Assembly (NCBI RefSeq): GCF_000255135.1
Contig: NC_016751.1
Coordinates: 992,001-1,056,000 of the forward strand
Direction: 5' to 3'
DNA from: Marinitoga piezophila KA3
GTDB taxonomy: Bacteria; Thermotogota; Thermotogae; Petrotogales; Petrotogaceae
Length of the DNA: 64,000 nt
A program made the position numbers and the translations under genes. The notes under the pieces were generated by a model. That model was not told the DNA's origin. It did no database searches and was given only the letters and a program-made list of their open reading frames with translations. Shown piece after piece: positions 20,177-37,190 of the stretch (position 1 is the stretch's first letter; each line of letters begins with the position of its first letter).

Positions 20177-20301
20177 AATTTCACCTCCATGTGGTTTATA
20201 TTCCATCCAATCTGATTATCGTCCTTTTTTTGAATATCTTTAATGTTATTTTTTATTAATATGATATTATATTAGACTTAAAATTATCTTTTTTGGTTCA
20301 A

Positions 20302-20339
20302 TAAAAAAAATAACAACGCCTCTTTAAGGCGCTGTTATT
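20302..20339 (-). terminator. Terminator of the 1631-aa lipoprotein gene
   Basis: Minus strand AATAACAGCGCC / GGCGTTGTTATT pair (one G-T) followed by a long T-run; overlaps the stop codon. Confidence 0.85.
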
Positions 20340-23300
20340 GTATTAAAACCTTACCTACATCAGATATATCAATATCCAGATAGTTATCTATTCCCGATGC
20401 AAACTTTGTGTTATCTGTAAATCTAAGTTCTGTTTCTCCAGGAGTTCCAATTGCTTTAAAGGTAAGTTGTAATATATCACTATTATTTATACTAAAGGTT
20501 CCTCCTAAGGATAAAATAGATATGCTTATTTTTCCATTTGAAATGCTTATAAGTAATCCTTTACCAGTTAATTCTCCTATACCTTTTATATCGTTTTCTG
20601 TAATGGATAGTTTAGCCGGATCATATGTAATTTCTATATCACATGCCTGAATATTTTCTATAACCTGCCCGTGTATTATCACATTACCTTTAGACCCTGA
20701 TTGTATCGTTGTATCTTTAAAATAAAGTTTTGGAACTAATGGTCCTGTATCTTCTTTTATTGTGAATGAATAGGTATCGCTTGATGTTTCTCCACCCTTT
20801 CCATCCTTCGCAACTACTTTCCAGTAATATGTTGCTCCAGTTTGAAGATTGGATACACTTAATGATGTATTGGCCAAATTTGTTTTATATGGTGTTGAAA
20901 GATTTGGATCTGTTGATAAATATACATCATATGTTAGTGAATCGCCATCAGGATCACTACAACTCCACTGTAAGGTTATATCCGGTTCAATATCTGTTGC
21001 ATTGTTCTGTGGCGAAAGCAATACAGGCTTATCAGGCGGCGTATTTTGTTGTAAAGCAGTTGTAAATGAATATGTTTTACTTGATGTCTCTCCACCTTTT
21101 CCGTCTTTTGCAACTACTTTCCAGTAATATGTTTTACCTGAATCAAGAGTTACTGTATAATCGGTATTTGTATAGTCGCTTTCTTTTGGTGTTGTAAATT
21201 GCTGCGAATCTGAGATGTATATATCATATTTTAACGTATCTCCATCCGGATCGTTTCCCTGCCATTTTAATGTTACTGTTGTAGGAATATTTTCTGCTTT
21301 ATCTGCTGGTTCAAGCAACTCTGGTTCTAATGGTGGATTATTTTCATTGGATGATTCTGTTATTGTAAATACCCACAATGGCCCTGAGGTTATATTTCCT
21401 TCGCTATCTTTTGCTATTACTTTCCAATAATATGTTCCTGGAACCAAATTTGTAATTTCATAATTTTTAGCAGTTATATTTTTTGCTTTTAATCCAGGCT
21501 CCTGTACATTTCCAAAATACAAGTCATAAGTTACGCTGTCTCCATCTGGATCATATGATTCCCATTTCAAAGTAAGTGTCTTTAAACTTAATGTACTTTT
21601 ATCTGCCGGGTATGGATTATATGGCTTTATTGGAGGTCTATTATCCGGCATTGTGATTAAGTTTGCATGAATATTTCCGGTATGTTTTCTATCTCCAAGA
21701 TATATTGGCCATCCTGAATCTTTCAGCTCTATTGAATCGCCATATACTCCATAAATGAACCCATTTAACGTTCCAAAAACTATAACACCATTTTCATCTA
21801 TATTTGGTGATGATTTTAATTTTAACTGCGTTTCCTCCGTATCCTGATACGTCCACTCTTCAGTAGAGTTTATTACCCTAAAACTTTTTTTACCGCCTAA
21901 ATATTTATATTCTCCTGTAAGAGTAACATTATATAATTGTTCATTATATAAATCTTTTTCCAGAATATCAGTTATATAGTAATATTTATAAAGATATCCA
22001 CTTTCGCCTACAAATACTATTGAATTATCTGTATCAACTACTATACTTCCTGTAATTACTTCATCTAATTCTTTTTCAAATATTTTATTTCCATACAAAT
22101 CATATCCATATATTTTTTTCTCTTTTGTTCCAAAATATATGTTTCCATTTTTATCCATGGATAAATCTGTTGAAATCTGTTGAGCAAAGGATATTTTAAA
22201 CAATTCTTCTCCTGTATTGCTGGATAATCCATACAGGAATTGTCCAATACCTAAATACAGGTTATTTCCATTAACTACTATATTTGTAGTTGCATTACCA
22301 AATAATTCTTTTTTCCATATTTCGTTGCCAAACGCTCCAAATTTATACAATATACCTGTATCCGTTACTACGAATATTTCTCCATTCACTCCAATAGACA
22401 CAGGCTTTGATATAGGACCTTCCAACTCTGTTTTTTCATATAACGTGCCATCTGGATTTATTATATATAACTCACCTAATTCATCACCTATAATTATTTG
22501 ATTAATTGGATTTAACACCACAGGAGCTTTTATAAAGCCTTCTGTATTATATTTCCATATTATATTCCCATAGGTATCCAATGCATATATTGCTCCGTCT
22601 GATGTTGAAAAATAAATTGTATTATCTTCAGAAATTGCAGGCGATTGAATTGCACTACCTATATATTTTTTAAATTTTAAATCTGCGGGCTTTAAAATTG
22701 TTTTAAAAGAATATATATCGCTTTCTGTTTCAAATTCTCCATCAGAAGCTATAATTTTCCAATAATATCTTTTATTATTTTCAAGTGTAATGTTAAAATA
22801 TGTAGCTTCGGTTGTACCAATAGCCTGTAATTCTTCATTTTCCTGAGCAAGATATATAGTATATTTCAAAGGATCATCTTCTGGATCTTCGCCTTTCCAG
22901 GAGAGTGTTACTTTTATAGGAACCTCTGTTCTTTGATTCTCAGGATAAATTAACACAGGTTTCTCAGGTTGATGATTATTTCTACTATATAGATTTCTAT
23001 TATGCTCTGAATTTTTTCCGTCTTGACACCATATATTATCTGTAGCCTCTTCTGAGGGAATTATAGATAATGCATATAAATTATTCTGAGAAATTCCCAA
23101 TAGCAATCCATCATTAAAAGATGAGGATAATATTTCTCCAAATTCATCTTTATTATTTGTAGATTCAAAGTTTTTGTATATTCCGTTTTTCGTAAAAATA
23201 TATATATTATTTCCATGAATTATTTTGCTCTTATTGTACAAATTAGCAATAGAATAACTTGCTTTAAGTTTTCCGGATTTTGAAATTTTAAATATTTTAG

Positions 23301-25230
23301 AATTTCCGAAAACATAAACATACTCTCCATCATAAATTCCTTCACCATATATATTATCACTTAAAGTTATTTCCCAATTTTCATCTCCTTCCTGTGTATA
23401 ACTATATAATTTCTCACCTGTTGCAAAATACAAATTATAATTTTCATCAGAAATAATAGAACCTGTCAATTTATTTGATAAATTAATTTCACAAAGTACC
23501 TTGCCAAGTGGTTTTGTAATTATAATTTTCCCACTATTTTCATAATTACCCGAAATCACCATTTTACCATTTTCAATTATCGTTAATGGAGCTATTGGTT
23601 CAATTTCATATATTTTATTAAATTTTACTGTATCTCTAGAAAGATCATAAGCTACTATATTACCATTTTTAACTGTAATATAAAGTGTATTTTGACCTGC
23701 TGTTAAACCTATAATAGTATCTGATATTTCCAGAGATATTGTTTTTTGAATAATGAATTTACTTAAATCAATTACCTTTATTTCACCATTTTCAGAAGGA
23801 ATATATAAAATTCCATTATAAATAATACCACCAGGTAAAAGGCCTTCAACTTCTATGATATTATTTTCTGAAGAATCTGTATTTAATTTATATATTTTAT
23901 CATTTGTTATAACATAAATTTTTTCATCATAGATAAACATATCTTTTATATCTTCTATTTCTTTTTGCCATTCAAGGGAAACGGGCTCTTTTGTTGTTTT
24001 TATTTTATACACTTCACTCCAGCTTTTCTCACCATAAGGATCTTCTGACATTACTTTTAGATAATATACCTTATTCTTTTCAAGAGATATATCATAGTAT
24101 GTATCTTCAAGATTTGTGGCAATTGGAGATAAGTACATTGGATTATTACCCATATAAAGTGAGAATTTCAATTTATCATTATCTTTATCCACTCCATTCC
24201 AATTTAATCTGATATTATCCGGAATTATTGAATTGTTTTTTGGATATATAAATTCCGGATTTTCAGGTGTTTGATTTACATCCTGAACTATTATATTTAA
24301 AACTCCCAGTGAATTTTCTTTTGTATCCGATACCACTATCTGTTCCTGAATTTGTTTTGTTAAATCTGGATGTTTTACAAAATCATAATCTGGTTTGAAT
24401 ATATACTTACTTCTTTCAATCATTGCACCTTTATTATTTGTTAATATATGGTATTCTATTGGATCGTTTTCTCTATCGTATACAAAATTTTTCAAATCCA
24501 ATTCAAATTTTTCATTTTCTTTTATCACAAATGTTTTAGCGGGAAAGTCAACAACAGGAGGTGTATTGTCATCTGTTTTGAATGTCCATATATCTGATGT
24601 TTCACTTGCACCCATTGAATCAAAAACTACTACTTTCCAATAATATTTTGTATTTAACTTTAAATCTTTTACGGTATATTCTGTTTTTGTAAGATATGTT
24701 GCAATCGGTGTTATAAGCGATGTAGATTCATCAAGATAAAGATTGTAATAAACATTATCTCCATCAAAATCCACACTTTTAATCCATTGAAACTTTATTT
24801 CATATGGAAAAACTTCTTCTGCACCATCTCTTGGATTTATTAAAAAAGTTTTAGTTGGAGGATTTTTATTGATTTTTTCAATTCTAAATTCAATAATTTT
24901 TCTATCTAAATTCCCTTTTTTATCTACTGCTTCAAGTTTCCATGAATATGTTTTATCTTCATCAAGGGATAAATTAATTTCTGTTTCTGTATATTCCTTA
25001 ATATCTTTTATTACCTTTTTATCAGTATTGGAAAATAAATAAAAATTATAATACAGAAGATCATTATCAGTATCTTCTGCCTTCCAGGAAAATTTAACTT
25101 CTTTATCAGTTAAAGATTCGCCATTTTGTGGAGTCATCTCCAATATTTTCGGGGGATTGTTTTTAAATATACATCCCTGAAAGAGAAAAAGCATCAGTAA
25201 TATAATTATAAGATTTAAAATTTTCTTCAT
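20335..25230 (-). CDS. Giant lipoprotein: FN3 modules, two propellers, C-terminal cohesin-like domain
   Basis: A 1631-aa protein with lipobox LFQGC (Cys20). In order, by counting residues: FN3-like modules at 24-118 and 124-219; a cadherin/Ig-like module at 224-318; FN3 at 322-413; a PQQ-like beta-propeller at 418-735; FN3 at 754-845; a second propeller at 848-1190 (repeats such as IYFSTSDGAIYALDTYGN); three FN3 modules at 1199-1291, 1298-1392 and 1398-1491; and a cohesin-like domain at 1498-1631 (KLYFKDTTIQSGSKGNVII, DIEITYDPAKL, ILQLTFKAIG). No enzyme domain is seen. Long, exposed and modular, it fits a surface or toga scaffold. The separate promoter is not clear; GGAGG precedes the ATG. 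Confidence 0.82.
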   Translation of the reverse strand: MKKILNLIIILLMLFLFQGCIFKNNPPKILEMTPQNGESLTDKEVKFSWKAEDTDNDLLYYNFYLFSNTDKKVIKDIKEYTETEINLSLDEDKTYSWKLEAVDKKGNLDRKIIEFRIEKINKNPPTKTFLINPRDGAEEVFPYEIKFQWIKSVDFDGDNVYYNLYLDESTSLITPIATYLTKTEYTVKDLKLNTKYYWKVVVFDSMGASETSDIWTFKTDDNTPPVVDFPAKTFVIKENEKFELDLKNFVYDRENDPIEYHILTNNKGAMIERSKYIFKPDYDFVKHPDLTKQIQEQIVVSDTKENSLGVLNIIVQDVNQTPENPEFIYPKNNSIIPDNIRLNWNGVDKDNDKLKFSLYMGNNPMYLSPIATNLEDTYYDISLEKNKVYYLKVMSEDPYGEKSWSEVYKIKTTKEPVSLEWQKEIEDIKDMFIYDEKIYVITNDKIYKLNTDSSENNIIEVEGLLPGGIIYNGILYIPSENGEIKVIDLSKFIIQKTISLEISDTIIGLTAGQNTLYITVKNGNIVAYDLSRDTVKFNKIYEIEPIAPLTIIENGKMVISGNYENSGKIIITKPLGKVLCEINLSNKLTGSIISDENYNLYFATGEKLYSYTQEGDENWEITLSDNIYGEGIYDGEYVYVFGNSKIFKISKSGKLKASYSIANLYNKSKIIHGNNIYIFTKNGIYKNFESTNNKDEFGEILSSSFNDGLLLGISQNNLYALSIIPSEEATDNIWCQDGKNSEHNRNLYSRNNHQPEKPVLIYPENQRTEVPIKVTLSWKGEDPEDDPLKYTIYLAQENEELQAIGTTEATYFNITLENNKRYYWKIIASDGEFETESDIYSFKTILKPADLKFKKYIGSAIQSPAISEDNTIYFSTSDGAIYALDTYGNIIWKYNTEGFIKAPVVLNPINQIIIGDELGELYIINPDGTLYEKTELEGPISKPVSIGVNGEIFVVTDTGILYKFGAFGNEIWKKELFGNATTNIVVNGNNLYLGIGQFLYGLSSNTGEELFKISFAQQISTDLSMDKNGNIYFGTKEKKIYGYDLYGNKIFEKELDEVITGSIVVDTDNSIVFVGESGYLYKYYYITDILEKDLYNEQLYNVTLTGEYKYLGGKKSFRVINSTEEWTYQDTEETQLKLKSSPNIDENGVIVFGTLNGFIYGVYGDSIELKDSGWPIYLGDRKHTGNIHANLITMPDNRPPIKPYNPYPADKSTLSLKTLTLKWESYDPDGDSVTYDLYFGNVQEPGLKAKNITAKNYEITNLVPGTYYWKVIAKDSEGNITSGPLWVFTITESSNENNPPLEPELLEPADKAENIPTTVTLKWQGNDPDGDTLKYDIYISDSQQFTTPKESDYTNTDYTVTLDSGKTYYWKVVAKDGKGGETSSKTYSFTTALQQNTPPDKPVLLSPQNNATDIEPDITLQWSCSDPDGDSLTYDVYLSTDPNLSTPYKTNLANTSLSVSNLQTGATYYWKVVAKDGKGGETSSDTYSFTIKEDTGPLVPKLYFKDTTIQSGSKGNVIIHGQVIENIQACDIEITYDPAKLSITENDIKGIGELTGKGLLISISNGKISISILSLGGTFSINNSDILQLTFKAIGTPGETELRFTDNTKFASGIDNYLDIDISDVGKVLIQ
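20761..21140. repeat. 300-base tandem period encoding FN3 modules
   Basis: 20761-20840 and 21061-21140 are near-identical stretches exactly 300 bases apart, encoding YYWKVVAKDGKGGETSS twice. This shows recent internal duplication of one FN3-like module of 100 residues. Confidence 0.75.
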
Positions 25231-25356: not shown

Positions 25357-27051
25357 TTAAATTTCTTCTTCTACTTCTTCCAGATCTTTTTTACCTGCAC
25401 GGGCGATAGCTATAAATCCTTCTACAAAAATCCAGAGAGCTATAATGAGAGTAGCAACTGTAATGAATATTAATAAGCTATTATTACTTGCTATAAATTT
25501 CTTTAAGTTTAATACTGTTGCATATAATGTCATAACCATCATAAATAACATTGGTAATCCTGTAATCCATATTGGCTTTTTCTTCTGTGCAAGATATACA
25601 GTACCAATAAGCAATGCTAAACTGGCAAGTAACTGATTTAAAGCACCAAATACTGGCCAGAGAATTAAAGCACCTTTACCGTCTCCAGTTGACAATGCTA
25701 ATCCCATTGCTGCAAGAATCACTATTGCTGTTGCAACATATCTATTTTCAAGAGGTTTAACTATGATTTTTCCTTCTTTATTTGAGAATAATTCCTGCAA
25801 TGCAAATCTTTGAATTCTTGTTGATGAATCCATTGTTGTACCAGCAAATGAAACAATAAATACAGCCATTATTGTTTTTGCAAGGTCAAGAGGAATGCCA
25901 TAAGAGTTCATAAGATTTGCTGAACCATTGATAACTGCTGATAATTTTGCACCAAGACCGCTTGCTGCTGCCCATGATGAATAATGTGATGTAAATGCTT
26001 CAACGCCTCCACCATTCATACCAAGACCTGCAGTTACTGCAATAATAACAATTGTTGCAAGAACTCCTTCTAAAATCATTCCGCCGTAACCAATCATCTG
26101 AGCATCTGTTTCTTTTTCCAATTGTTTAACTGTAGTTCCTGAAGCAGCTAAACTATGGAACCCTGATATTGCACCACAGGCTATTGTTATGAAAAGAATT
26201 GGGAATATAGGTGGTGCATCTGGAACTGTTTGAAATGCAGGAGCAACGATTTTTGGATGTCCAATAATTACTCCAAGAACCAATAATCCCATAGCAATTA
26301 ATAATTCATGTGAATTTATATAATCCCTTGGCTGCAATAACTTATGAACAGGCATAGTTGAAGCGATGAAAACATATGCCATCAATATATAAATCCATGT
26401 AATTATTGCATTTCCACCAAGTTTTATAGGCATAACAACACCTATGCCAATAGTTACATACATTAAAATAACAGCAATTATTGAATAAAGTGTATCGTTT
26501 TTACCTTTGTTATAAATCATATAACTTAACCACATGGCAATAGGTATTTCCATCCATACTGGAAATACTGACTGTGGATACATATTAAACAACAATGCAA
26601 CAATAAGTCCAAATACTGCCAGAACTATCCATAATAAGAACTGGATTAAAATCAAGAATATCTTTGCTGTTCTTTCGTTAATTAAATTACCTGTTAATTC
26701 ACCTATAGTTTTACCCTGATTTCTTGCTGAAACTACAAGTGATGTAAAATCATGTACTGCACCCATAAATATAGAACCAAAGAATACCCAGATAAATGCA
26801 GGTACCCAACCCCAGATAACACCTATTGCTGGACCAACTATTGGACCTGTTCCTGCAATAGTTGTAAAGTGGTGTCCCAATAAAATATGCTTTTTAGTAG
26901 GAACATAGTCAACACCATCTTCAAATTCCTTTGAAGGTACCGGGTTGTTGTCGTTAAGACCGAAAATCTTTTTTGCTATCCATTTGCCATATGTGTTATA
27001 GGCCAACCAATAACCTACAAATGCTAAAATAGCCAACAATAACGAATTCAC
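25357..27051 (-). CDS. cstA: CstA-family transporter (pyruvate/peptide)
   Basis: Integral membrane protein of the CstA family, 564 aa with many hydrophobic segments. The family signature near the N-terminus is clear: GHHFTTIAGTGPIVGPAIGVIWGW followed by GAVHDFTSLVVSAR. CstA of E. coli was first linked to peptides and its paralogue BtsT to pyruvate import. The gene lies directly downstream of a LytS/LytTR sensor pair, the same partnership as BtsSR with BtsT, so pyruvate is the best guess for the substrate. The start is GTG, placed behind GAAAGGGGGT. Own terminator behind it. Confidence 0.92.
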   Translation of the reverse strand: MNSLLLAILAFVGYWLAYNTYGKWIAKKIFGLNDNNPVPSKEFEDGVDYVPTKKHILLGHHFTTIAGTGPIVGPAIGVIWGWVPAFIWVFFGSIFMGAVHDFTSLVVSARNQGKTIGELTGNLINERTAKIFLILIQFLLWIVLAVFGLIVALLFNMYPQSVFPVWMEIPIAMWLSYMIYNKGKNDTLYSIIAVILMYVTIGIGVVMPIKLGGNAIITWIYILMAYVFIASTMPVHKLLQPRDYINSHELLIAMGLLVLGVIIGHPKIVAPAFQTVPDAPPIFPILFITIACGAISGFHSLAASGTTVKQLEKETDAQMIGYGGMILEGVLATIVIIAVTAGLGMNGGGVEAFTSHYSSWAAASGLGAKLSAVINGSANLMNSYGIPLDLAKTIMAVFIVSFAGTTMDSSTRIQRFALQELFSNKEGKIIVKPLENRYVATAIVILAAMGLALSTGDGKGALILWPVFGALNQLLASLALLIGTVYLAQKKKPIWITGLPMLFMMVMTLYATVLNLKKFIASNNSLLIFITVATLIIALWIFVEGFIAIARAGKKDLEEVEEEI

Positions 27052-27127
27052 TAAAAATACCCCCTTTCAATTTTTAAACTATACCATTATAAAAATATCA
27101 TACAATATTCATCTTTTTCGACAAAAG

Positions 27128-27155
27128 TAAAAAAAAATGCCCCAAACGGGCAAAT
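27128..27155 (-). terminator. Terminator behind the response-regulator gene
   Basis: Stem tgccc / gggca with loop, followed on the minus strand by nine Ts; lies between the regulator and cstA, so cstA needs read-through or its own promoter. Confidence 0.7.
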
Positions 27156-27163
27156 TTCTAAAC

Positions 27164-27859
27164 TCAAAGATTTAAAATTTTCTTGACATGCCTTAAATAT
27201 GTTTTACCTATTGGTAATATTTTTTTATTTTTCAATTCCAGAGAAGATAGTTCTTTTATATATTTTTCTATATAATCAAGATTCACAATATACGATTTAT
27301 GAATCCTTACAAAATTTTTTGGCAAATTTTTTGATAGTTCTGAAAATTTTCTAAAATGCTTAAGTATATATTCATTATCAAATGTAAATACATGTATGGT
27401 TTTGTCAAAAAATTCAAAATAATATATATCTTTAAAATCAAGAAATATTATTTCTTTTTCATCTTCAACAGCCAATTTTGTAGTTTTGTTTTCTGTGTTG
27501 GTAAATAATTGTTTTATTCTATTTATTGTCTCAATAAAACGTTCTTCTGAGACAGGCTTTGTTATATAGTCAAGAGCATTAACCTCAAATGCATCTACAG
27601 CATATTCCGAATATGCTGTTACAAAAACTATTTTATGCTGATTTAAGTATTTCGCTGCCTTTATTCCGTTCATTTTTGGAAGTTCTATGTCTAAAAATAT
27701 AACGTGAATTTCATTATTCTTTGATTTTTTCATAAACTCTTCAATGCTTTCATAACAACCAACAATATTAAAATCACTCATTTCATGTATTAAATCCTTT
27801 AATGATTCCCTTGCGTAATATTCATCATCTATTATAGCCACATTAATCAATTGTCTCAC
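27164..27859 (-). CDS. btsR: LytTR-type response regulator, BtsR-like
   Basis: Two-domain regulator, 231 aa: receiver domain with phosphoacceptor Asp57 in FLDIELPKMNG, and LytTR DNA-binding domain with the typical FVRIHKSYIVNLDYIEKY and LPIGKTYL. In E. coli BtsR activates the CstA-type pyruvate transporter btsT; here the neighbouring cstA is the obvious target. It overlaps the sensor kinase gene by 17 bases. No binding-site repeat was identified by eye upstream of cstA. Confidence 0.9.
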   Translation of the reverse strand: MRQLINVAIIDDEYYARESLKDLIHEMSDFNIVGCYESIEEFMKKSKNNEIHVIFLDIELPKMNGIKAAKYLNQHKIVFVTAYSEYAVDAFEVNALDYITKPVSEERFIETINRIKQLFTNTENKTTKLAVEDEKEIIFLDFKDIYYFEFFDKTIHVFTFDNEYILKHFRKFSELSKNLPKNFVRIHKSYIVNLDYIEKYIKELSSLELKNKKILPIGKTYLRHVKKILNL

Positions 27860-29507
27860 CTACTTTTTTAGGTATCTTTATTTCCACAGTAGTCCCACCA
27901 AACAATCCACTTTTTATTGAGAAATTATAATCATCATTATACAGGGATTTTAGTCTATTTTCTATTAATGTCAACCCCTTACCCTTTTTTCTCGAATTCA
28001 ACATTCCCTTTCCATCATCTTCCACATAAATATAAAAACTATTTTCTTTTTCTAAAAATCGTATATTTATGTTTAGAATAGTATCCTTCATTCCATGTTT
28101 TATTGAGTTTTCTACAATAGGTTGAAGTATAAAAGGTGGAACAAGTATTTCACTGTATTTTTCATAATCTTCAACATTATAATTTATTTTATCCTTAAAT
28201 CTTAATTTCATTAATGAAAGATAATTTTTAGTAAATGTCAATTCCTTATTAAGAGTAACATACGTGCTATTTTCATATAAAGTATATCTCAAAAGTTCTG
28301 ACAAATCGTCTATAAATTTATTTACCTTTTCAGGTTCTTTCTTTGAAATATATTTTATAGCATTTAATGTGTTAAATAAGAAATGTGGACTTAAATTCGC
28401 CATTAATTCTCGCAATTTCTCCTCTGTTGCCATTTTTAATTCTTCATTGATTTTGGCAGTTGATATTATTAATGAAAGTGTCTGTGCCAGTTTTTTACCA
28501 AAGACTATATCTGAATTTTTTATTGTATTATTTCTGGAATAATACAGCTTCAATGTCCCTATTAGTTTCCCTTCTACATTTTCAAGAGGAACTATAATCG
28601 CCGAATATAACGGACAATTAGGATATGGGCAATTAATTCCCTTTTTCCCAACTATCTTTAATCCCTGACCGCTTTTTATTACTTTTTTTGTAGCCTCTGT
28701 CTTTATTGGTATTCCAGAATAATGATGGTCATCACCTATCCCAACATGAGCTAATATTTTCTTTTTATCTGTTAATGCAACAGCTTCAAAAGAAGTATTA
28801 TCAAGTATTGTCTTTGCAATCTCTCTTGCGCTTCGTTCAGTGAATCCGTCTTTTATTGTATTCAAAGACCTTTCCATTATTACAAAAATTGAGTTTATAG
28901 CATTTTCCGTTGTATATTCCAGCTTTTCTTCCATATTAATTATCATGAAATTAAGGAATGAAACACCTAAAGCATTTGTGATAACCATTGGGAATAATAT
29001 ATTAAAGGTTATATTATAAGCTACCTCGAAAGGTTTTACCATTAATAACACATAGGTTAAATGTATAATCTCTATTACCGCTGTATAAAACAAAGTTCTA
29101 AAAAAGGTAAAATGTTTTCTTCCATAATATTGAGATATAAAACCACTAATTAAACCTGCTGATATTGTTCCAAAAAAACATGGAACAGCGGTAATTCCGC
29201 CTAAAAACAATCTAAACGTCGCTGCAATTATGCCAGCTACCAATCCTCCTGGCATTCCACCAATCATTCCAGAAAGAATAACGCCTATATCTCTATAATT
29301 TACAATTGCACCATTATACGGAATTCCAAAAATTGTTCCAAGAATCCCTAAAAATCCTCCAATTATTCCAAGAATAAGCTTATTTTTGACAACAAGAGTA
29401 TTGCCAAAAATCTTTTTTATAAAATATGTCTGCATTATAATATAGGTAATAACAAGAATAAGTGAAACCCTTTCAAGCAATAAAAAACTTATGCTATCCT
29501 TCAACAT
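27843..29507 (-). CDS. btsS: LytS-family sensor histidine kinase, BtsS-like
   Basis: Membrane sensor kinase, 554 aa. About six hydrophobic segments lie in residues 8-190 with GGMPGGLVAGIIAATFRL, the hallmark of the 5TMR-LYT sensor domain. A GAF-like domain follows (about 215-350, with CPYPNCPL), then the His kinase core with PHFLFNTLNAI (His375) and an ATPase domain with ENSIKHG, DDGKGM and GKGLTLIENRL. LytS/BtsS members sense small metabolites or membrane state; BtsS senses pyruvate. Its start overlaps the stop of the small upstream gene. Confidence 0.92.
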   Translation of the reverse strand: MLKDSISFLLLERVSLILVITYIIMQTYFIKKIFGNTLVVKNKLILGIIGGFLGILGTIFGIPYNGAIVNYRDIGVILSGMIGGMPGGLVAGIIAATFRLFLGGITAVPCFFGTISAGLISGFISQYYGRKHFTFFRTLFYTAVIEIIHLTYVLLMVKPFEVAYNITFNILFPMVITNALGVSFLNFMIINMEEKLEYTTENAINSIFVIMERSLNTIKDGFTERSAREIAKTILDNTSFEAVALTDKKKILAHVGIGDDHHYSGIPIKTEATKKVIKSGQGLKIVGKKGINCPYPNCPLYSAIIVPLENVEGKLIGTLKLYYSRNNTIKNSDIVFGKKLAQTLSLIISTAKINEELKMATEEKLRELMANLSPHFLFNTLNAIKYISKKEPEKVNKFIDDLSELLRYTLYENSTYVTLNKELTFTKNYLSLMKLRFKDKINYNVEDYEKYSEILVPPFILQPIVENSIKHGMKDTILNINIRFLEKENSFYIYVEDDGKGMLNSRKKGKGLTLIENRLKSLYNDDYNFSIKSGLFGGTTVEIKIPKKVGETID

Positions 29508-29776: not shown

Positions 29777-29819
29777 TGTTATCCCCCCTCAAAATCTTTT
29801 TATTAATTTCATCTATATT

Positions 29820-29849
29820 ATTATACCACTTACAAAACTTTTTATGTAA
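29820..29849 (-). promoter_or_regulatory. Probable promoter of the sensor operon
   Basis: Minus strand TTACAT, 18-base spacer, TATAAT, 44 bases before the TTG start. Confidence 0.5.
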
Positions 29850-29877
29850 TTTTCAATTAACATTAAAAGAGTATAAT
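29850..29877 (+). promoter_or_regulatory. Probable promoter of the 29934 lipoprotein gene
   Basis: TTTTCA, 16-base spacer, TATAAT; divergent from, and next to, the sensor operon promoter. Confidence 0.45.
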
Positions 29878-29933
29878 AATATTGAACAATTTTAAAAATA
29901 TAATCAATACAAAAATTATCAGAGGTGATTTTT

Positions 29934-31403
29934 ATGAAAAAAGTATTATTATTTATTTTTGCTTTAAGCATTCTGTTTTCAGGATGTATTTTTAATAAAG
30001 AAGAAGTTTCACTAAAACCTGTTGCTGAAACACTCGCACCGTTAAGGGAATATATTTCAACTGCTGAAACAATAATTGGTCTTGCTCAGGGGAAAAAAGA
30101 GGATGTTATTCCAGAAAAAACAGTAAATATAGAACATATCCCCGATTTAATTGGCAAAACTCCTGAACAGGTTTATATTGAATACGGAGGTACAGGTTCT
30201 AACACCGTAAGAGTTCCTAATACAGGGTATTTTGATAACTTTTACGGTAAAGATTCTCATATTAGAGCTGCATTTTATATGACTCCTACAACATTAACAG
30301 ATGAAAGTACAGGATATATCTTAGAAGTATATATGGATCCTTATCTTGATCTTTCTGTAAAATATGATTATGAAAAATATAAGGTTGCATTTAATTCCTG
30401 GGAATTCAAATTGAAAAATCTCTTAGAATATAAAACAGTATTATCAGATGGTAGCGTTGTTAATAGAAATATTATTGAACAAAAAGAAGATTGGGATTCT
30501 ACTGTAGGATATGCAATGTTTGAAGCACCTGATATTTTGCAAAATCTAAATGAATATCTATATCCGGATAATATCCCACAACCTGCCACAACAACAGGTA
30601 TAGATTGGTATTCACATACTATTTCTGAAATTGATTCTTTCTGGAATAGAATTACAGCAGAAGAATTTTATACCGAATCTTCAACAGAAATTAATGGAGA
30701 AGATATATTTATGAATTCAGGTATCACATATATCAAAACAGAAAAGGATTTTCTCTGGGATACCGACACAAAAACTGTTGTTAGGTTCAAAACGGTTGGA
30801 AAGGATCAAACAACAAAATCCTTTACAGCAACTGGAAATATAGGCGTAATCTGGTATTCTGCAAGTGATGATGTAACTATAGATGCCACTGGTTCAGAAA
30901 ATAATCTTACGCATTATAAGAAAGTATTTATGGAATGGTGGGATTCACCAGAAAATATAAGCGAAAATAATTTCTCATATAAGGAAATTATTGAATTAGA
31001 AGAAACAGGAGAAAATACTGCAGAATATGAAGGAACTATTAAAAAGTTCTGGAATGGTAATGATACTGGAAATGGATATTATGTCTCTTTGAAAAAGGAT
31101 TCAAATGATAATTATGTCTTTAGTATAGGCTGGCAATGGTTTGAAGCTACAGATAAATCAATTACTAAAGGAGATGCTTCAAGCGAAGATTCCAATATAG
31201 AAAGTTTCCAGATTGTGGATAATGAACTTGTAATAAAACTTAAAAACGGTGGCACATTTAAAGGTCATTTTGCCAATGGCGCATTTGTTGGAACATATGA
31301 ATATAATGGAGAAACTTATAATAATGTAATAATAAGTTCTATTGGAATTGCTTTAAATGATCAAAAATTTAAATTTAACAAAGACGGAAATTTAATCGAA
31401 TAA
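29934..31403 (+). CDS. Lipoprotein of unknown function
   Basis: Not recognised. The ATG at 29934 is preferred to an in-frame GTG at 29925 that lies inside the AGAGGTGA site. The protein has 489 aa with lipobox LFSGC (Cys18) and many Tyr, Trp and acidic residues. Segments such as VRFKTVGKDQTTKSFTATG and the last part (LKNGGTFKGHFANGAFVGTYEYNG, a MORN-like beta turn pattern) suggest a beta-rich extracytoplasmic protein. Single-gene unit ending in a strong bidirectional terminator. Confidence 0.7.
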   Translation: MKKVLLFIFALSILFSGCIFNKEEVSLKPVAETLAPLREYISTAETIIGLAQGKKEDVIPEKTVNIEHIPDLIGKTPEQVYIEYGGTGSNTVRVPNTGYFDNFYGKDSHIRAAFYMTPTTLTDESTGYILEVYMDPYLDLSVKYDYEKYKVAFNSWEFKLKNLLEYKTVLSDGSVVNRNIIEQKEDWDSTVGYAMFEAPDILQNLNEYLYPDNIPQPATTTGIDWYSHTISEIDSFWNRITAEEFYTESSTEINGEDIFMNSGITYIKTEKDFLWDTDTKTVVRFKTVGKDQTTKSFTATGNIGVIWYSASDDVTIDATGSENNLTHYKKVFMEWWDSPENISENNFSYKEIIELEETGENTAEYEGTIKKFWNGNDTGNGYYVSLKKDSNDNYVFSIGWQWFEATDKSITKGDASSEDSNIESFQIVDNELVIKLKNGGTFKGHFANGAFVGTYEYNGETYNNVIISSIGIALNDQKFKFNKDGNLIE

Positions 31404-31411
31404 ACATTATA

Positions 31412-31450
31412 TAAAAATCCCCGATTGATAAATATCAATCGGGGATTTTA
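31412..31450. terminator. Bidirectional terminator before hydA
   Basis: Stem aatccccgattgata / tatcaatcggggatt with T-run; serves the lipoprotein gene on plus and hydA on minus. Confidence 0.9.
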
Positions 31451-33160
31451 TTAATTTCTGGCAACATAATGAGTATGAAGGAGATGATGGGCTATTTCAC
31501 TATTTGGTTCACCTAAAAATTCTTTATACAATTCTTTTACAGCAGGATTTTCGTGTGATTTTCTTAATTTTGAACCATAATCAATTTCATAAATTGCTTC
31601 CATTCTCTTTAATAAAATTTCTTCTGTTGTAGGAATTGGTTGTCCGCCACCACCTATACATCCACCCGGACATGCCATAAATTCTACAAAATGATATTCC
31701 ACTTCGCCATTTTTCATTCTTTCAAGCAATTTTCTTGCTGCACCCAAGGTATTTACAACAGCTACTTTTATAATCTTTCCATTTATTTCAACCTCGGCTT
31801 CTTTTACCATATCCAAACCTCTAACAGCAGTAAAATCAAGCTTTTCAAGCTCTCTTCCTGTTAATATTTCATACGCTGTTCTCAAAGCGGCTTCCATAAC
31901 ACCACCTGATGCGCCGAATATTGCTCCAGCACCTGTTGATATGCCAAATGGATTATCATATTCCTCTTCAGGTAGATTTTTAAAGTCTATTCCTGACTCT
32001 TTTATCATCTTGGCTAATTCTCTTGTCGTCAATACAAAATCTACATCTCCAGCATGTTCTGGTCTGTTCATTTCATATTTTTTCGCTGTACATGGCATTA
32101 TCGATACCACTACTAATTTTTCCTTCGGAATACCCAATTTTTTTGCATAATAATGTTTGGCAACAGCACCAAACATCTGTTGTGGAGATTTTGCTGAAGA
32201 CAGATGAGGAAGATATTCAGGATAATTGTGTTCTATAAACTTAATCCAGCCAGGACTACATGAAGTAAATAACGGAAGCTTTCCCCCTTCTTTAAATCTA
32301 TGTATAAATTCAGTTCCTTCCTCAACAATAGTCAAATCTGCAGTAAAATTAGTATCAAATACCTTATCAAATCCCAACAATCTTAAAGCTGCTACGAGTT
32401 TACCTGTTGAAATTGTTCCAGGCTCCATACCAAATGGTTCTCCTATAGCTACTCTAACTGCGGGTGCAGTTTGAACTATGGTTACTTTTTCCGGATCATT
32501 TAATGCATTCCAAACACCATCTATATGATAAACCTCATGTAATGCACCCGTAGGACAATTCATTACACATTGACCACAATTTGTACAATCTACATTTCCC
32601 ATACCTTCATCCATAAATGTAGTTACTATTGTATTTGGACCTCTATCAGCGAATGTGAAAATATTAACACTTTGTATATTAGAGCAAGCTCTTATACATC
32701 TTCCGCAAACTATACATTTTGTGGGTTCTCTAACAATTGCATAACTGGAATAATCAGAAACAAGGTTTTTCTCAACTGGTGGAATATTAACCTTTGTAAC
32801 TCCTATTTCTTCAGCAATTTCCTTTAATTCACATGATGTAGCTTTTGAACATGTCAAACAATTCAATTCACAACTAATACCATGAGAAGCTATTATCAAC
32901 TGCATTATCGTTCTTCTAACTCTTCTTACCTTTTCAGAATGTGTTTTTATCTTCATCCCTTCAGAAATCTTCACGGCACATGATGGAACTAATGTTTTTG
33001 AACCCTCAACCTCAACAACGCACAATCTACATCCGCCATATGGCTCCATACCTTCTATATAGCACAATGTTGGTATTTTTATATTTGCTTTTTTTACAGC
33101 TTCAAGAATAGTAATTCCTTCTGGCATATCATATTCTCTATTATTTATAGTGATTCTCAT
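31451..33160 (-). CDS. hydA: [FeFe] hydrogenase catalytic subunit HydA
   Basis: Makes or oxidises H2 at the H-cluster, in the cytoplasm. The 569-aa protein has an N-terminal [2Fe-2S] domain (Cys33, 44, 47, 61), a His-Cys3 cluster (H93, then C97, C101, C104 region), two [4Fe-4S] motifs (CIVCGRCIRAC and CTNCGQCVMNC) and the H-cluster motifs: FTSCSPGW (Cys301), IMPCTAKKYE (Cys357) and FMACPGGCIGGGGQP (Cys497, 501). The first motif has Ser where clostridial enzymes have a second Cys. It is shorter than Thermotoga maritima HydA (645 aa), and the C-terminal iron-sulfur extension is not visible. Last gene of hydC-hydB-hydA. Confidence 0.95.
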   Translation of the reverse strand: MRITINNREYDMPEGITILEAVKKANIKIPTLCYIEGMEPYGGCRLCVVEVEGSKTLVPSCAVKISEGMKIKTHSEKVRRVRRTIMQLIIASHGISCELNCLTCSKATSCELKEIAEEIGVTKVNIPPVEKNLVSDYSSYAIVREPTKCIVCGRCIRACSNIQSVNIFTFADRGPNTIVTTFMDEGMGNVDCTNCGQCVMNCPTGALHEVYHIDGVWNALNDPEKVTIVQTAPAVRVAIGEPFGMEPGTISTGKLVAALRLLGFDKVFDTNFTADLTIVEEGTEFIHRFKEGGKLPLFTSCSPGWIKFIEHNYPEYLPHLSSAKSPQQMFGAVAKHYYAKKLGIPKEKLVVVSIMPCTAKKYEMNRPEHAGDVDFVLTTRELAKMIKESGIDFKNLPEEEYDNPFGISTGAGAIFGASGGVMEAALRTAYEILTGRELEKLDFTAVRGLDMVKEAEVEINGKIIKVAVVNTLGAARKLLERMKNGEVEYHFVEFMACPGGCIGGGGQPIPTTEEILLKRMEAIYEIDYGSKLRKSHENPAVKELYKEFLGEPNSEIAHHLLHTHYVARN

Positions 33161-34369
33161 TTAAATCACCTCTTCTTTAAAAAATTTATCAAGAACAGAA
33201 TAGATAAAATTAACTGAAGATTGTCCAAATCCACATCTCGCAGCGAGCATAATAGATTCTTTTAATTCACCTATTATCTTTTTATATTCATCATTATAGC
33301 CATTTCTTTTTAATTTCAATAATATCTCTTTGATATTCCTATTTCCTTCACGGCAGGGGAAACAAGTTCCACATGTCTCTTTTACAAAAAATTCCGATAC
33401 ATTCAGCAATATTTCAATTAAATCATGATTTTTGGATACTACTATCATTCCGCCAGAGCCAATAGAACTTCCAGCTGCTTCGAGATCTTCATAGGTATAT
33501 CTAACATTAATCTCATTATCCTTTAATATTGAAGTAGCTATACCTCCTGGAACTACAAAGTTTAATTCTTCAATAGGTCCTCCTGCTAATTCCACTATTT
33601 CCCTTATTGTACAACTACCAAATTCAATTTCATACACATCTGGAACTTTAACATCTCCATTTATTGATATAAGTTTTGTTCCTCTACTTTTTTCAGTTCC
33701 TAATCTGGCATATACATTATCTTCATATTTCATAATCTCCGCAACTGTTGCTAATGTTTCAACATTATTTACCACAGTTGGTTTTCCAAATAACCCTTCT
33801 TGAACTGGATATGGAGGTTTAATTCTTGAAAATCCTCTTTTACCCTCTATTGAATTTATTAATGATGTTTCGTCACCACAAACATATGCACCTGCACCCT
33901 TTACCAGTTTCAATTCAAAGTCAAATCCGCTTCCCAAAATATCTTTTCCTAATAACCCACTATGATATGCATCTTTAATAGTTTTTTCAAATATTTCTAT
34001 AGCCTTTGAATACTCACCTCTAATATAAATATATCCGTAATTTGCTTTTACAGCATAAGCAGCTATAATGATTCCTTCAAGTACCTTAAATGGCATATTT
34101 TCCAATAAAAATCTGTCTTTAAATGTACCTGGTTCTCCCTCATCAGCATTACAAATTAAAAATTTCACATCATTTTCCTGAGCAAGGGCGTATTGCCATT
34201 TTCTTCCTGTTGGAAATCCTGCTCCACCTCTTCCACGCAACCCAGATTCGGTTATTTTTTTCACAATTTCTTCTGGCATTAATTTCAAAGAGTTTTTCAA
34301 CCCTAAGTATTCATATTCTTCTGGTGTTTTTTTCAAGTCAGTTTTTAAAAAAATCTTTTCTTCTATCAT
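33161..34369 (-). CDS. hydB: Hydrogenase flavoprotein subunit HydB, compact form
   Basis: NuoF-like subunit that binds FMN and NADH. Visible: GRGGAGFPTG (46-55), NADEGEPGTFKDR (74-86), GAGAYVCGDETSL and the [4Fe-4S] motif with Cys333, 336, 339 and 379. At 402 aa it is close to plain NuoF. Thermotoga maritima HydB (about 626 aa) carries in addition an N-terminal thioredoxin-like [2Fe-2S] domain and a C-terminal 2[4Fe-4S] ferredoxin domain; neither is present here. Whether the complex is still electron-bifurcating is therefore open. It abuts hydA directly. Confidence 0.92.
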   Translation of the reverse strand: MIEEKIFLKTDLKKTPEEYEYLGLKNSLKLMPEEIVKKITESGLRGRGGAGFPTGRKWQYALAQENDVKFLICNADEGEPGTFKDRFLLENMPFKVLEGIIIAAYAVKANYGYIYIRGEYSKAIEIFEKTIKDAYHSGLLGKDILGSGFDFELKLVKGAGAYVCGDETSLINSIEGKRGFSRIKPPYPVQEGLFGKPTVVNNVETLATVAEIMKYEDNVYARLGTEKSRGTKLISINGDVKVPDVYEIEFGSCTIREIVELAGGPIEELNFVVPGGIATSILKDNEINVRYTYEDLEAAGSSIGSGGMIVVSKNHDLIEILLNVSEFFVKETCGTCFPCREGNRNIKEILLKLKRNGYNDEYKKIIGELKESIMLAARCGFGQSSVNFIYSVLDKFFKEEVI

Positions 34370-34384
34370 ATATTCTCACCACCT

Positions 34385-34804
34385 TTATATACAGTTTTTT
34401 AATAATGAAACTGCCTGTTGTGGTGTAACTTTGGTATATATTTTGTTGTTTATCATCATTACAGGTCCCTCACCACAATGTCCCAAGCATTCAACAATTT
34501 CAAGTGTAAATTTTCTATCCTTTGTTGTTTCTCCCGAGTCAATCCCTAAATATTCTTTAATCATTTCAACTACATTTTTACTGTTATTTAAATGGCAGGA
34601 TAGACTATTACATACACGAATTATATAACGACCACGTGGTTTAGTGTGAAACATTGAATAAAAAGTTATTACACCATATAATTCAGATTTTGGCATACCT
34701 CTTTTTTTTGCAATTCTGATAATCTGTTCTTCTGGAATATACCCATATGTGTTTTGAATTTCATGCAACTCATCAAGAAGCGGTTTTTCATAGAATTTTT
34801 CCAT
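34385..34804 (-). CDS. hydC: Hydrogenase subunit HydC, NuoE-like
   Basis: Thioredoxin-like [2Fe-2S] subunit, 139 aa. Cluster ligands are Cys65 and Cys70 (VCNSLSC) and Cys106 and Cys110 (ECLGHC), the normal NuoE spacing. The N-terminal helices carry YGYIPEEQIIRIAKK and GVITFYSMF, the interface with the HydB core. First gene of the hyd operon, 15 bases upstream of hydB; the ATG follows a GGGGGTG site. Confidence 0.93.
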   Translation of the reverse strand: MEKFYEKPLLDELHEIQNTYGYIPEEQIIRIAKKRGMPKSELYGVITFYSMFHTKPRGRYIIRVCNSLSCHLNNSKNVVEMIKEYLGIDSGETTKDRKFTLEIVECLGHCGEGPVMMINNKIYTKVTPQQAVSLLKNCI

Positions 34805-34855
34805 GTTTTTTCACCCCCTTAATTCAATATTAGCACTTTATTAAAAAAAATACTA

Positions 34856-34873
34856 TTGTGATTATATTCATTT
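34856..34873 (-). promoter_or_regulatory. Possible Rex-like operator before hydC
   Basis: TTGTGA-6-TCATTT resembles the Rex consensus TTGTGA-6-TCACAA in the left half and in three bases of the right half. It overlaps a minus-strand TATAAT (34861-34866), so it sits where a redox repressor would act. Weak match. Confidence 0.3.
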
Positions 34874-34944
34874 ATTTGCATTGAGAAGTAATAAAAAATA
34901 ATAAAAGTTTAATATTGTGCATTTTTCCACTTATTCTGATTATA

Positions 34945-34971
34945 TTGATGGCAGAAGTTATATGTTATAAT
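34945..34971 (+). promoter_or_regulatory. Probable promoter of the M29 peptidase gene
   Basis: TATAAT at 34966-34971, with TTGATG 15 bases upstream (or TATTGA with 17); 37 bases before the start codon. Confidence 0.5.
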
Positions 34972-35007
34972 AAAAGTAATTTCATATTATAAAGAAAGAG
35001 GTGTATT

Positions 35008-36228
35008 ATGGATAGAAAATTATTGGAAAAATATGCTGAACTTGCTGTGAGGGTTGGCGTAAATATTCAAAAAGGACAGAGATTATTGTTAAGAACCTCT
35101 GTAGACGCTGTTGAATTTTCAAGATTAATCGCTGAAAAGGCTTATGAAGCCGGGGCAAAAGAGGTATATGTTAGATATAGTGATGAATATATAACCTTTT
35201 TAAAATTAAAAAATGCACCTGAAGAAATTATTGAGGAGGTTCACAGTTGGGAAGTTGAAGCAGCAAAATTTTTCTGTGACGAAAAAGGGGCTTTCCTCAG
35301 TGTAATTAGCTCAGATCCAGATCTTTTTAAGGAAATACCTCCAGAAATTATAGGAAAATTCTCCAAAGCAAATCAAATGGCAATGAAAGAGGTATCAAAA
35401 GAAATTATGTCAGGAAAGGTAAGTTGGTCTGTTGTGGCAGTCCCTAATGAAAAATGGGCTAAAAAGGTTTTCCCTGAATCCACAAATCCCGTTGAAGATT
35501 TATGGAATGCTATATTAAAAACTATAAGGGTTAATGAAAATGATGATCCTGTGGAATTATGGAATAAACACATAGAAAATCTTAATAAAAGAACGGAATT
35601 TTTAAATAAAAGACAGTATGAATATTTAAGATACAAAGGGCCAGGAACAGATTTAATGGTTGGAATGCCGGAAAATCATATTTGGGTTGCAGGAACACAA
35701 AAAAATGTAGATGGAACCGTATTTTTACCAAACATTCCAACGGAAGAGGTTTTTAGTGCTCCACATAAAGATAAGATAAATGGATATGTTAGAAACAGCA
35801 AACCTTTAGTTTATGGCGGAAATATTATAGATGGGTTTACAATGGAATTTAAGGACGGAAAAATCGTAAAGGTAACTGCTGAAAAAGGTGAAGACGTATT
35901 AAAACAGGCAATTTCACTTGATGAAGGCGCAAGCTACCTTGGCGAAGTGGCTCTTGTCCCTGTAGATTCACCAATTTATCAACTCAATACTATTTTCTAT
36001 AATACGCTTTTTGATGAAAATGCCGCTTCACACTTTGCATTTGGAAAGGCTTATCCAATATGTATTAAAGATGGAACAAAAATGTCTGAGGAAGAATTAA
36101 AAGAACATGGTTTAAATACCAGTATTACACATGTAGACTTTATGATTGGAAATGAAGAATTAGATGTTTATGGAATAAAAGACGGAAAAGAAGAATTAAT
36201 TATGAAAAATGGAAAATGGGCAATATAA
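35008..36228 (+). CDS. M29-family metallo-aminopeptidase
   Basis: Cytoplasmic aminopeptidase of the thermophilic M29 family (AmpS, aminopeptidase T), which removes N-terminal residues using two metal ions. The 406-aa length is standard. The metal-binding and active-site set is visible in order: NIPTEEVFSAP, LGEVALVP, SHFAFGKAYP and ITHVDFMIG. The opening YAELAVRVGVNIQKGQRLLL is typical of the family. Single gene with promoter in front and a strong terminator behind. Confidence 0.93.
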   Translation: MDRKLLEKYAELAVRVGVNIQKGQRLLLRTSVDAVEFSRLIAEKAYEAGAKEVYVRYSDEYITFLKLKNAPEEIIEEVHSWEVEAAKFFCDEKGAFLSVISSDPDLFKEIPPEIIGKFSKANQMAMKEVSKEIMSGKVSWSVVAVPNEKWAKKVFPESTNPVEDLWNAILKTIRVNENDDPVELWNKHIENLNKRTEFLNKRQYEYLRYKGPGTDLMVGMPENHIWVAGTQKNVDGTVFLPNIPTEEVFSAPHKDKINGYVRNSKPLVYGGNIIDGFTMEFKDGKIVKVTAEKGEDVLKQAISLDEGASYLGEVALVPVDSPIYQLNTIFYNTLFDENAASHFAFGKAYPICIKDGTKMSEEELKEHGLNTSITHVDFMIGNEELDVYGIKDGKEELIMKNGKWAI

Positions 36229-36264
36229 TAAAAATACCCGGAGGTTTTCTCCGGGTATTTTTAT
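36228..36264. terminator. Bidirectional terminator of the peptidase gene and the amino-sugar operon
   Basis: Stem aaaaatacccggag / ctccgggtattttt with T-runs on both strands; overlaps the stop of the SIS gene on the minus strand. Confidence 0.88.
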
Positions 36265-37190
36265 TCTAAAATAACAGATTTGCTGAGATTTCTTGGTTTA
36301 TCTGGATTATGACCTTCTGTTAAAGCTTTTTTGTATCCAAGATATTGCGGAAGTATCATTTTGAGGGGACTTTCAAATCCATTCTTATATGGTATCTTTA
36401 AATCACCATTTTCTCCTACAAAAATCACTTCGGCTTCCATTACCCTTAATTCTTCTGCAAGTATTCTTTCTTCTTTTGTATCCTTTGAATTTATTATAAC
36501 AAGCGTTTTATCCGTAACCAATGATTTTGGTCCATGTCTATATTCCAATGGCTCATGAAATTCCACATTTTGTATAGCCATTTCTTGAATCTTTAAAGCG
36601 CCTTCTTTAGAAATTCCATATTGTTCTTCAAAACCTAAAAATACAAAATGGCTGAATTTTTTTAAGTCTATTTTGTCTATTATGCTTTCCACATTCTTTA
36701 CCACTTCAATTGATTCATTTGAAAGCTCATGCTTTTCTATACCATTTAATAAAAAGTTTAATATAAACACAAAAGAACCTGTCATTACCACGCTTTCTTC
36801 ATTGGCAAAATCAAAAACAAAACTTTCATCGCATACCTTTGTAAGTGTTGAATTCTTTTCACATGTAATACCTATGGTCTTTATCTTTCTTTTTTTAAAA
36901 TGCTCTACAGCCTTCACTGTTTCTGTTGATTCTCCTGTTCTTGATAGGAATATTGCAACATCGCTTTCTGGAACCTTATCAAATACTATTACATTTCCAC
37001 CTGAAATTATTTCGGCATTATATCCATTTTTTCTTAGCATTTCTGTTGTAATGTATCCAAGATTATATGAAGAACCGCATCCTACAAAGGTATATTTTTT
37101 ATCTTTTTCAAATGAAAAATCAAATTCCTTTGTATGTTTTAATAATTCCGGTATTCTTTCTATTTCCCTTAAAGTTTTTTCACCTTTCAT
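36261..37190 (-). CDS. SIS-domain sugar-phosphate deaminase/isomerase
   Basis: Two SIS domains, as in GlmS C-terminal half, AgaS and NagB-II. The start is the ATG at 37190, which overlaps the permease stop as ATGA; a longer in-frame extension to 37301 lies inside the permease gene and is not used. The 309-aa protein shows FVGCGSSYNLGYIT, LSRTGESTETVKAV and GPKSLVTDKT, the sugar-phosphate binding loops. In an operon with a hexosaminidase and a sugar ABC importer it probably turns glucosamine 6-phosphate (or similar) into fructose 6-phosphate. No glutaminase domain is present. Confidence 0.85.
   Translation of the reverse strand: MKGEKTLREIERIPELLKHTKEFDFSFEKDKKYTFVGCGSSYNLGYITTEMLRKNGYNAEIISGGNVIVFDKVPESDVAIFLSRTGESTETVKAVEHFKKRKIKTIGITCEKNSTLTKVCDESFVFDFANEESVVMTGSFVFILNFLLNGIEKHELSNESIEVVKNVESIIDKIDLKKFSHFVFLGFEEQYGISKEGALKIQEMAIQNVEFHEPLEYRHGPKSLVTDKTLVIINSKDTKEERILAEELRVMEAEVIFVGENGDLKIPYKNGFESPLKMILPQYLGYKKALTEGHNPDKPRNLSKSVILE

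Follow-up and report, generated by a model that had tools for sequence, protein, structure and literature searches.

A compact HydABC of Marinitoga piezophila KA3 with the features of NADH-dependent, non-bifurcating [FeFe] hydrogenases

HydABC-type [FeFe] hydrogenases include enzymes that bifurcate electrons between NADH and ferredoxin, such as that of Thermotoga maritima, and a non-bifurcating kind. The purified Hyd1ABC of Syntrophomonas wolfei is described as a heterotrimer that oxidizes NADH and reduces NAD+ without ferredoxin; it has flavin mononucleotide (FMN), and its HydB1 (407 amino acids) lacks the N-terminal [2Fe-2S] and C-terminal [4Fe-4S] clusters (Losey 2017, PMC5626996). Non-bifurcating homologs, S. 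wolfei included, are reported to be without clusters B2-B5 (Schut 2022, PMC9304861), while the C-terminal HydB cysteines, unlike the C-terminal HydA cluster, are given as conserved across all characterized bifurcating [FeFe] hydrogenases (Furlan 2022, PMC9499530). The residues proposed to mark a non-bifurcating HydB are Thr or Ser at position 232, Lys, Ser or Ala at 234, Tyr at the FMN site and no GGPSG motif; predicted holders include Marinitoga, Petrotoga, Halanaerobium, Ignavibacterium and Selenomonas, with both kinds in some genomes (Losey 2020, PMC7311640). Here we describe a compact hydCBA operon of Marinitoga piezophila KA3, located in a stretch of 64,000 nucleotides (NC_016751.1, positions 992,001 to 1,056,000), hereafter the window, whose own numbering is used for features in it. 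The compact HydABC is an ordinary member of this previously described and tested enzyme form, and we put the probability that it is an NADH-dependent, ferredoxin-independent, non-bifurcating hydrogenase of the S. wolfei Hyd1ABC kind at about 0.92. The basis in our analysis is domain content, residue signatures, phylogeny, co-occurrence and maturation genes. The compact form, which a previous sequence-only reading had pointed out, is not unusual; it is a known kind, and Marinitoga and Petrotoga had already been named among its holders (PMC7311640).

The operon lies on the minus strand in the order hydC-hydB-hydA (34804-31451). The first gene, hydC (34385-34804), encodes a NuoE-like gamma subunit of 139 amino acids with a Thioredoxin-like [2Fe-2S] domain (cluster cysteines 65, 70, 106 and 110); hydB (33161-34369) encodes a NuoF-like beta subunit of 402 amino acids with an FMN/NADH domain and one [4Fe-4S] cluster; and hydA (31451-33160) encodes the group A6 [FeFe] hydrogenase catalytic subunit of 569 amino acids, with H-cluster motifs and iron-sulfur domains. 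A gap of 15 bp separates hydC from hydB, and hydA abuts the hydB stop directly, its immediate start replacing the C-terminal domain of HydB. The architecture is the same as that published for Hyd1ABC of S. wolfei, an unrelated host.

The claim that HydB lacks the N-terminal Thioredoxin-like and C-terminal ferredoxin domains of the bifurcating Thermotoga enzyme holds by Pfam content, by alignment and by the reading frames. Only Complex1_51K (the Nuo51 FMN-binding domain) and NADH_4Fe-4S are matched. Among the homologous subunits of T. maritima HydABC (7p5h, bifurcating), HydB (626 amino acids) is covered over residues 175-552, with both ends of its chain unmatched. An in-frame stop occupies the third codon before the hydB ATG, and hydC is closed likewise; no other frame therefore harbors the absent N-terminal part. 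A missed upstream frame, a possibility raised in the sequence-only reading itself, is ruled out, as is a frameshift. Other frames before hydC encode nothing longer than short peptides. Of the seven cysteines in HydB, four (Cys 333, 336, 339 and 379) fit the B1 [4Fe-4S] cluster; with this number, and a chain that ends at residue 402, the B2-B5 clusters of the bifurcating type are not found.

An AlphaFold model of HydB (35 sequences, mean pLDDT 87.8, pTM 0.90) can be superposed on NuoF chains of complex I with 391-401 of the 402 residues aligned (Z 47-50) and also matches residues 113-529 of 7t2r_B, the HydB chain of a bifurcating NiFe-hydrogenase. Structural alignment, which had been proposed as a check against the known HydABC structure and was run here with the predicted model, is in keeping with a HydB that has the NuoF core only. 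In the comparison with the PDB, complex I and related flavoprotein chains headed the list; the absence of T. maritima HydB from the 50 matches listed excludes nothing. Complex I NuoF/Nqo1 matches the whole HydB model and shares the non-bifurcating NADH/FMN-site residues, but its partner is the complex I arm, whereas that of the compact HydB is a HydA with an H-cluster.

The residue signatures point the same way. By alignment, T82 and K84 of HydB correspond to T. maritima positions 232 and 234, Tyr162 stands in the FMN-site motif GAGAYVCG, and GGIAT replaces GGPSG (T. maritima 427-431). HydB thus has all of the residues given for non-bifurcating enzymes (Losey 2020) and none of those given for bifurcating ones (A/E232, M234, Phe at the FMN site, GGPSG). 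Positions 232, 234 and 427-431 agree with the numbering in PMC7311640; for the Phe/Tyr FMN site, that paper prints 367 and our alignment puts GAGA(F/Y)VCG at T. maritima 312. The non-bifurcating pattern recurs in all 21 compact HydBs of the host family (Petrotogaceae), one of them (L069) incomplete but extending over the positions concerned. Ala/Met/Phe at the three sites, GGPSG, the N- and C-terminal cluster domains of HydB and a C-terminal extension of HydA are found in T. maritima and not in the compact enzyme.

Alternatively, the compact HydABC could be a minimal bifurcating enzyme, for which FMN, B1 and the HydC cluster suffice and which would bind ferredoxin at another site, such as HydA, in the manner of monomeric clostridial hydrogenases. 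In favor of this, both HydC and the NuoF core are retained, and HydA keeps ferredoxin-type clusters. We nevertheless regard this as very improbable, given that the characterized enzyme of the same architecture is described as needing no ferredoxin (PMC5626996), that the FMN/NADH-site residues and the GGPSG position are of the non-bifurcating type throughout the family, and that all characterized bifurcating enzymes are reported to have the C-terminal clusters (PMC9499530, PMC9304861).

The window HydB was searched against 103 genomes of the phylum. Compact, high-scoring copies are present in 21/21 host-family genomes, 20 of them intact (538-893 bits) and one broken (625 bits), and the operon is therefore not an assembly artefact. 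The broken hydCBA, in a draft genome (G041; L069, G041:C2:17200-18198), is interrupted by two TGA codons, which may reflect true decay of the operon or a fault in the assembly. Among the 82 genomes outside the family, no listed match exceeds 376 bits or 49% identity; two of these genomes (G003 and G004) have NuoF-like frames of 432-436 amino acids with 44-45% identity. A search of the contigs of named genomes gave at least 80 loci, with no named host-family member and no S. wolfei among the matches listed; the bifurcating type is represented among these loci by L126, L147, L148 and L167.

A tree of 120 HydB cores, built with a quick method, places the bifurcating-type HydBs in a single clade (SH-aLRT 100) with the compact HydBs outside it. 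The compact family HydBs group with Halanaerobium (SH-aLRT 100); monophyly of the host family without Halanaerobium is supported at only 46. Within the family, both HydB copies (see below) give broadly the same genus-level groupings. HydCBA of Halanaerobium saccharolyticum (L093) resembles that of the window in having no ferredoxin tail, Thr-Lys-Tyr at the three HydB sites, TSCSPGW in HydA and an extra-Cys HydA insert, but it belongs to another phylum (Bacillota) and its HydB is only 54% identical.

The M. piezophila genome encodes three [FeFe] hydrogenase-type proteins, together with HydE, HydF and HydG, which are encoded together and all score over cut-off. A second HydABC operon (L056 5564-10028, minus strand) comprises hydC, a free Thioredoxin-like protein, hydB (596 amino acids) and hydA (577 amino acids); its HydA and HydB are 54% and 45% identical, respectively, to the compact subunits. 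The second HydB has the residues of the bifurcating type (Ala/Met/Phe and GGPSG), an N-terminal Thioredoxin-like domain and two C-terminal CxxCxxCxxxC motifs, and the L1 motif of the second HydA is TSCCPGW. The second copy was examined in every family genome except G046: both C-terminal motifs and GGPSG occur in 20/20 and Ala/Met/Phe in 19/20, L191 being cut by a contig end before these positions. Had many bifurcating enzymes shared the compact form, its bearing on bifurcation would have been lost; this was not seen, as all 20 second HydBs keep the C-terminal clusters. In eight of them (L173, L174, L177, L180, L181, L182, L183 and L189), the open frame of this bifurcation-marked HydB is 494-515 amino acids long and has no fused N-terminal Thioredoxin-like domain, while the C-terminal 2x[4Fe-4S] is kept; loss of the N-terminal domain alone is thus no mark of the non-bifurcating type. 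The third protein (670 amino acids; L057 3875-5887, minus strand, at about 0.89 Mb on G000:C2) is a fusion of an H-cluster domain and a methyl-accepting chemotaxis signalling domain, with SPCPSL in the L1 region, and may from its sequence be an H2 sensor. G091, a genome from a different family, encodes a 600-amino acid A6-type HydA with TSCCPGW (L061:5382-7184, minus strand) that stands alone, with no HydB or HydC recognized among the open reading frames of a 13-kb stretch.

The free Thioredoxin-like protein (132 amino acids, [2Fe-2S]-type, no Pfam match; L056 9117-9515, minus strand) lies between hydC and hydB of the second operon, and relatives of it (open frames of 93-160 amino acids) occur in 18 of 19 other genomes examined. 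Its position beside a HydB would suit an arrangement in which the compact enzyme is completed in trans by this protein or by another subunit of the second HydABC. We find this barely credible: the gene is part of the other operon, at a distance of 0.95 Mb; no separate gene for the ferredoxin tail was found in the compact operon; and the compact HydB has a non-bifurcating signature in its own residues.

Several points weigh against the non-bifurcating assignment. Cluster number alone is reported not to separate the two types (Losey 2020, PMC7311640). Mixed signatures occur at 4 of the at least 80 related loci (Asn-Lys-Tyr with GGPSG in L099 and L100, Thr-Lys-Tyr with GGPSG in L111 and L129), and the residue criteria are therefore not perfectly clean; among the named loci listed, L171 also has Asn at the 232 position. 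HydA scores 877.4 bits against NCBIfam NF040763 ("NADH-dependent [FeFe] hydrogenase, group A6"; cut-off 765), but the best score for this model in the genome (914 bits) belongs to the second, bifurcation-marked HydA. As that paralog is also over the cut-off, the A6 name alone is no proof of non-bifurcation, being necessary but not sufficient. The assignment of this protein is, moreover, a prediction from its sequence. The earlier proposal that bifurcation is affected by the absence of these HydB domains is supported by published work on enzymes with this architecture (PMC5626996, PMC7311640, PMC9304861) and by the residue tests.

In the non-bifurcating enzyme that we favor, NADH would reduce the FMN of HydB, and electrons would pass singly through the B1 [4Fe-4S] cluster and the iron-sulfur chain of HydA to the H-cluster, where protons would be reduced to H2. 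The reaction would be reversible, with H2 formed only at low H2 pressure, as reported for H2 production from NADH by the non-bifurcating enzyme (PMC7311640). With the N-terminal [2Fe-2S], the B2/zinc site and the two C-terminal [4Fe-4S] clusters absent, the proposed ferredoxin branch would be missing, leaving no second path on which to split or merge electrons. This route is predicted from the domains present and by analogy with S. wolfei; the activity, its direction and the physiological role are inferred.

HydA was also said to appear shorter. This is correct relative to T. maritima HydA (569 vs. 645 amino acids) but does not stand as evidence on bifurcation, since the HydA1 chains of solved bifurcating enzymes are similarly short (8a6t_A, 571; 7q4v_A, 583); we therefore rejected HydA length as a sign of non-bifurcation. 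The subunit has a [2Fe-2S] cluster, a His/Cys [4Fe-4S] site with an extra Cys97, and two ferredoxin-type [4Fe-4S] clusters. Its H-cluster motifs are TSCSPGW (L1, at 299), MPC (L2, 355) and MACPGGC (L3, 495), of which L2 and L3 are canonical. In L1, Ser302 aligns with C300 of the hydrogenase CpI and Cys301 with C299, which we take to be a ligand of the cubane and a proton relay, respectively. The CpIII cysteines aligned to these two positions have been given those same roles (PMC12138974). The HydA1 of Acetobacterium woodii, for which a structure is solved, also has Ser at the C300 position, while Thermoanaerobacter kivui and T. maritima have Cys; Ser alone is thus no argument against activity or for novelty.

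Among the loci listed with a readable L1, Ser is found in 21/21 compact, 38/42 other non-bifurcating-type and 1/21 bifurcating-type HydAs. These counts omit loci without a readable L1 (26 non-bifurcating-type and 2 bifurcating-type) and those without a HydA match (9); many of the unreadable loci seem, by their A partner, to be relatives of complex I or formate dehydrogenase. As a marker of non-bifurcation, TSCSPGW was rejected and is a tendency only: 20 of the 21 bifurcating-type loci come from one family, and A. woodii HydA1 has Ser. The Ser/Cys change in TSCSPGW/TSCSP-type hydrogenases is noted in PMC3787301, and the parts of two reviews (PMC8924675, PMC6288185) in which the motif was looked for hold nothing on it. 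That the compact operon is a dead remnant of a full HydABC, as the broken G041 copy and the Ser at the ligand position might suggest, is hardly tenable, as all but one of the 21 family copies are intact and keep the three genes in order, the same Ser occurs in the solved A. woodii chain, and the separate clades of the two paralogs indicate that the compact one is not derived from the bifurcating one.

A four-residue insert in HydA (H93-x3-C97-x3-C101-x2-C104-x5-C110) offers a possible fifth ligand at the His-ligated cluster. The insert form H-x3-C-x3-C-x2-C-x5-C is present in all 20 readable compact HydAs of the host family and in Halanaerobium L093; at the listed loci with a readable L1, the plain form H-x3-C-x2-C-x5-C is found in 41/42 other non-bifurcating-type (the exception being L093) and 21/21 bifurcating-type HydAs. 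In T. maritima, the His-ligated cluster is reported to bridge two protomers (Furlan 2022, PMC9499530). The compact hydrogenases of the host family and Halanaerobium might form a distinct subtype, in which the insert allows an all-Cys [4Fe-4S] at the His site and the L1 Ser contributes to tuning for NADH as sole donor; we consider this unlikely. If true, the potential of the cluster would be shifted, and the inter-protomer electron bridge of the T. maritima type changed or cut.

On either side of the operon lie a divergent M29 aminopeptidase gene and a convergent gene (29925-31403) without an assigned family. Between the latter and hydA, a strong, terminator-like hairpin with a 16-bp stem (31414-31449, no strand assigned) probably works in both directions; the terminator scan, which scored it on the plus strand only, gave 2 terminator-like sites vs. 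1.5 expected. Promoter predictions were uninformative (20 sites vs. 19.9 expected by chance). An Rfam search of 29800-36300 and a tRNA scan each gave no matches, and a tblastn search for plasmids gave matches only below 60% identity. Elsewhere in the window, a gene for a CstA-type carbon starvation transporter adjoins a pair encoding a 5TM-Lyt histidine kinase and a LytTR response regulator (25357-29507, minus strand), and two large proteins, probably cell-surface, are encoded at 16829-25230 (minus strand), one of 1125 amino acids with LVIVD repeats and one of 1631 amino acids with beta-propeller and fn3-type matches.

By published criteria, it would be wrong to annotate the compact operon as a bifurcating hydrogenase. 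The insert with its extra Cys and the Ser in L1 are minor features that can be tested and do not make a new system. The host seems to have both routes, bifurcating and non-bifurcating, and, with a separate bifurcation-marked HydABC in the same genome, the compact enzyme probably handles the NADH surplus beyond that used with reduced ferredoxin by the second HydABC. Because the host and the maturation genes are common to both, the compact and bifurcation-marked HydABCs of this one family offer a natural pairing in which the parts required for bifurcation could be tested.

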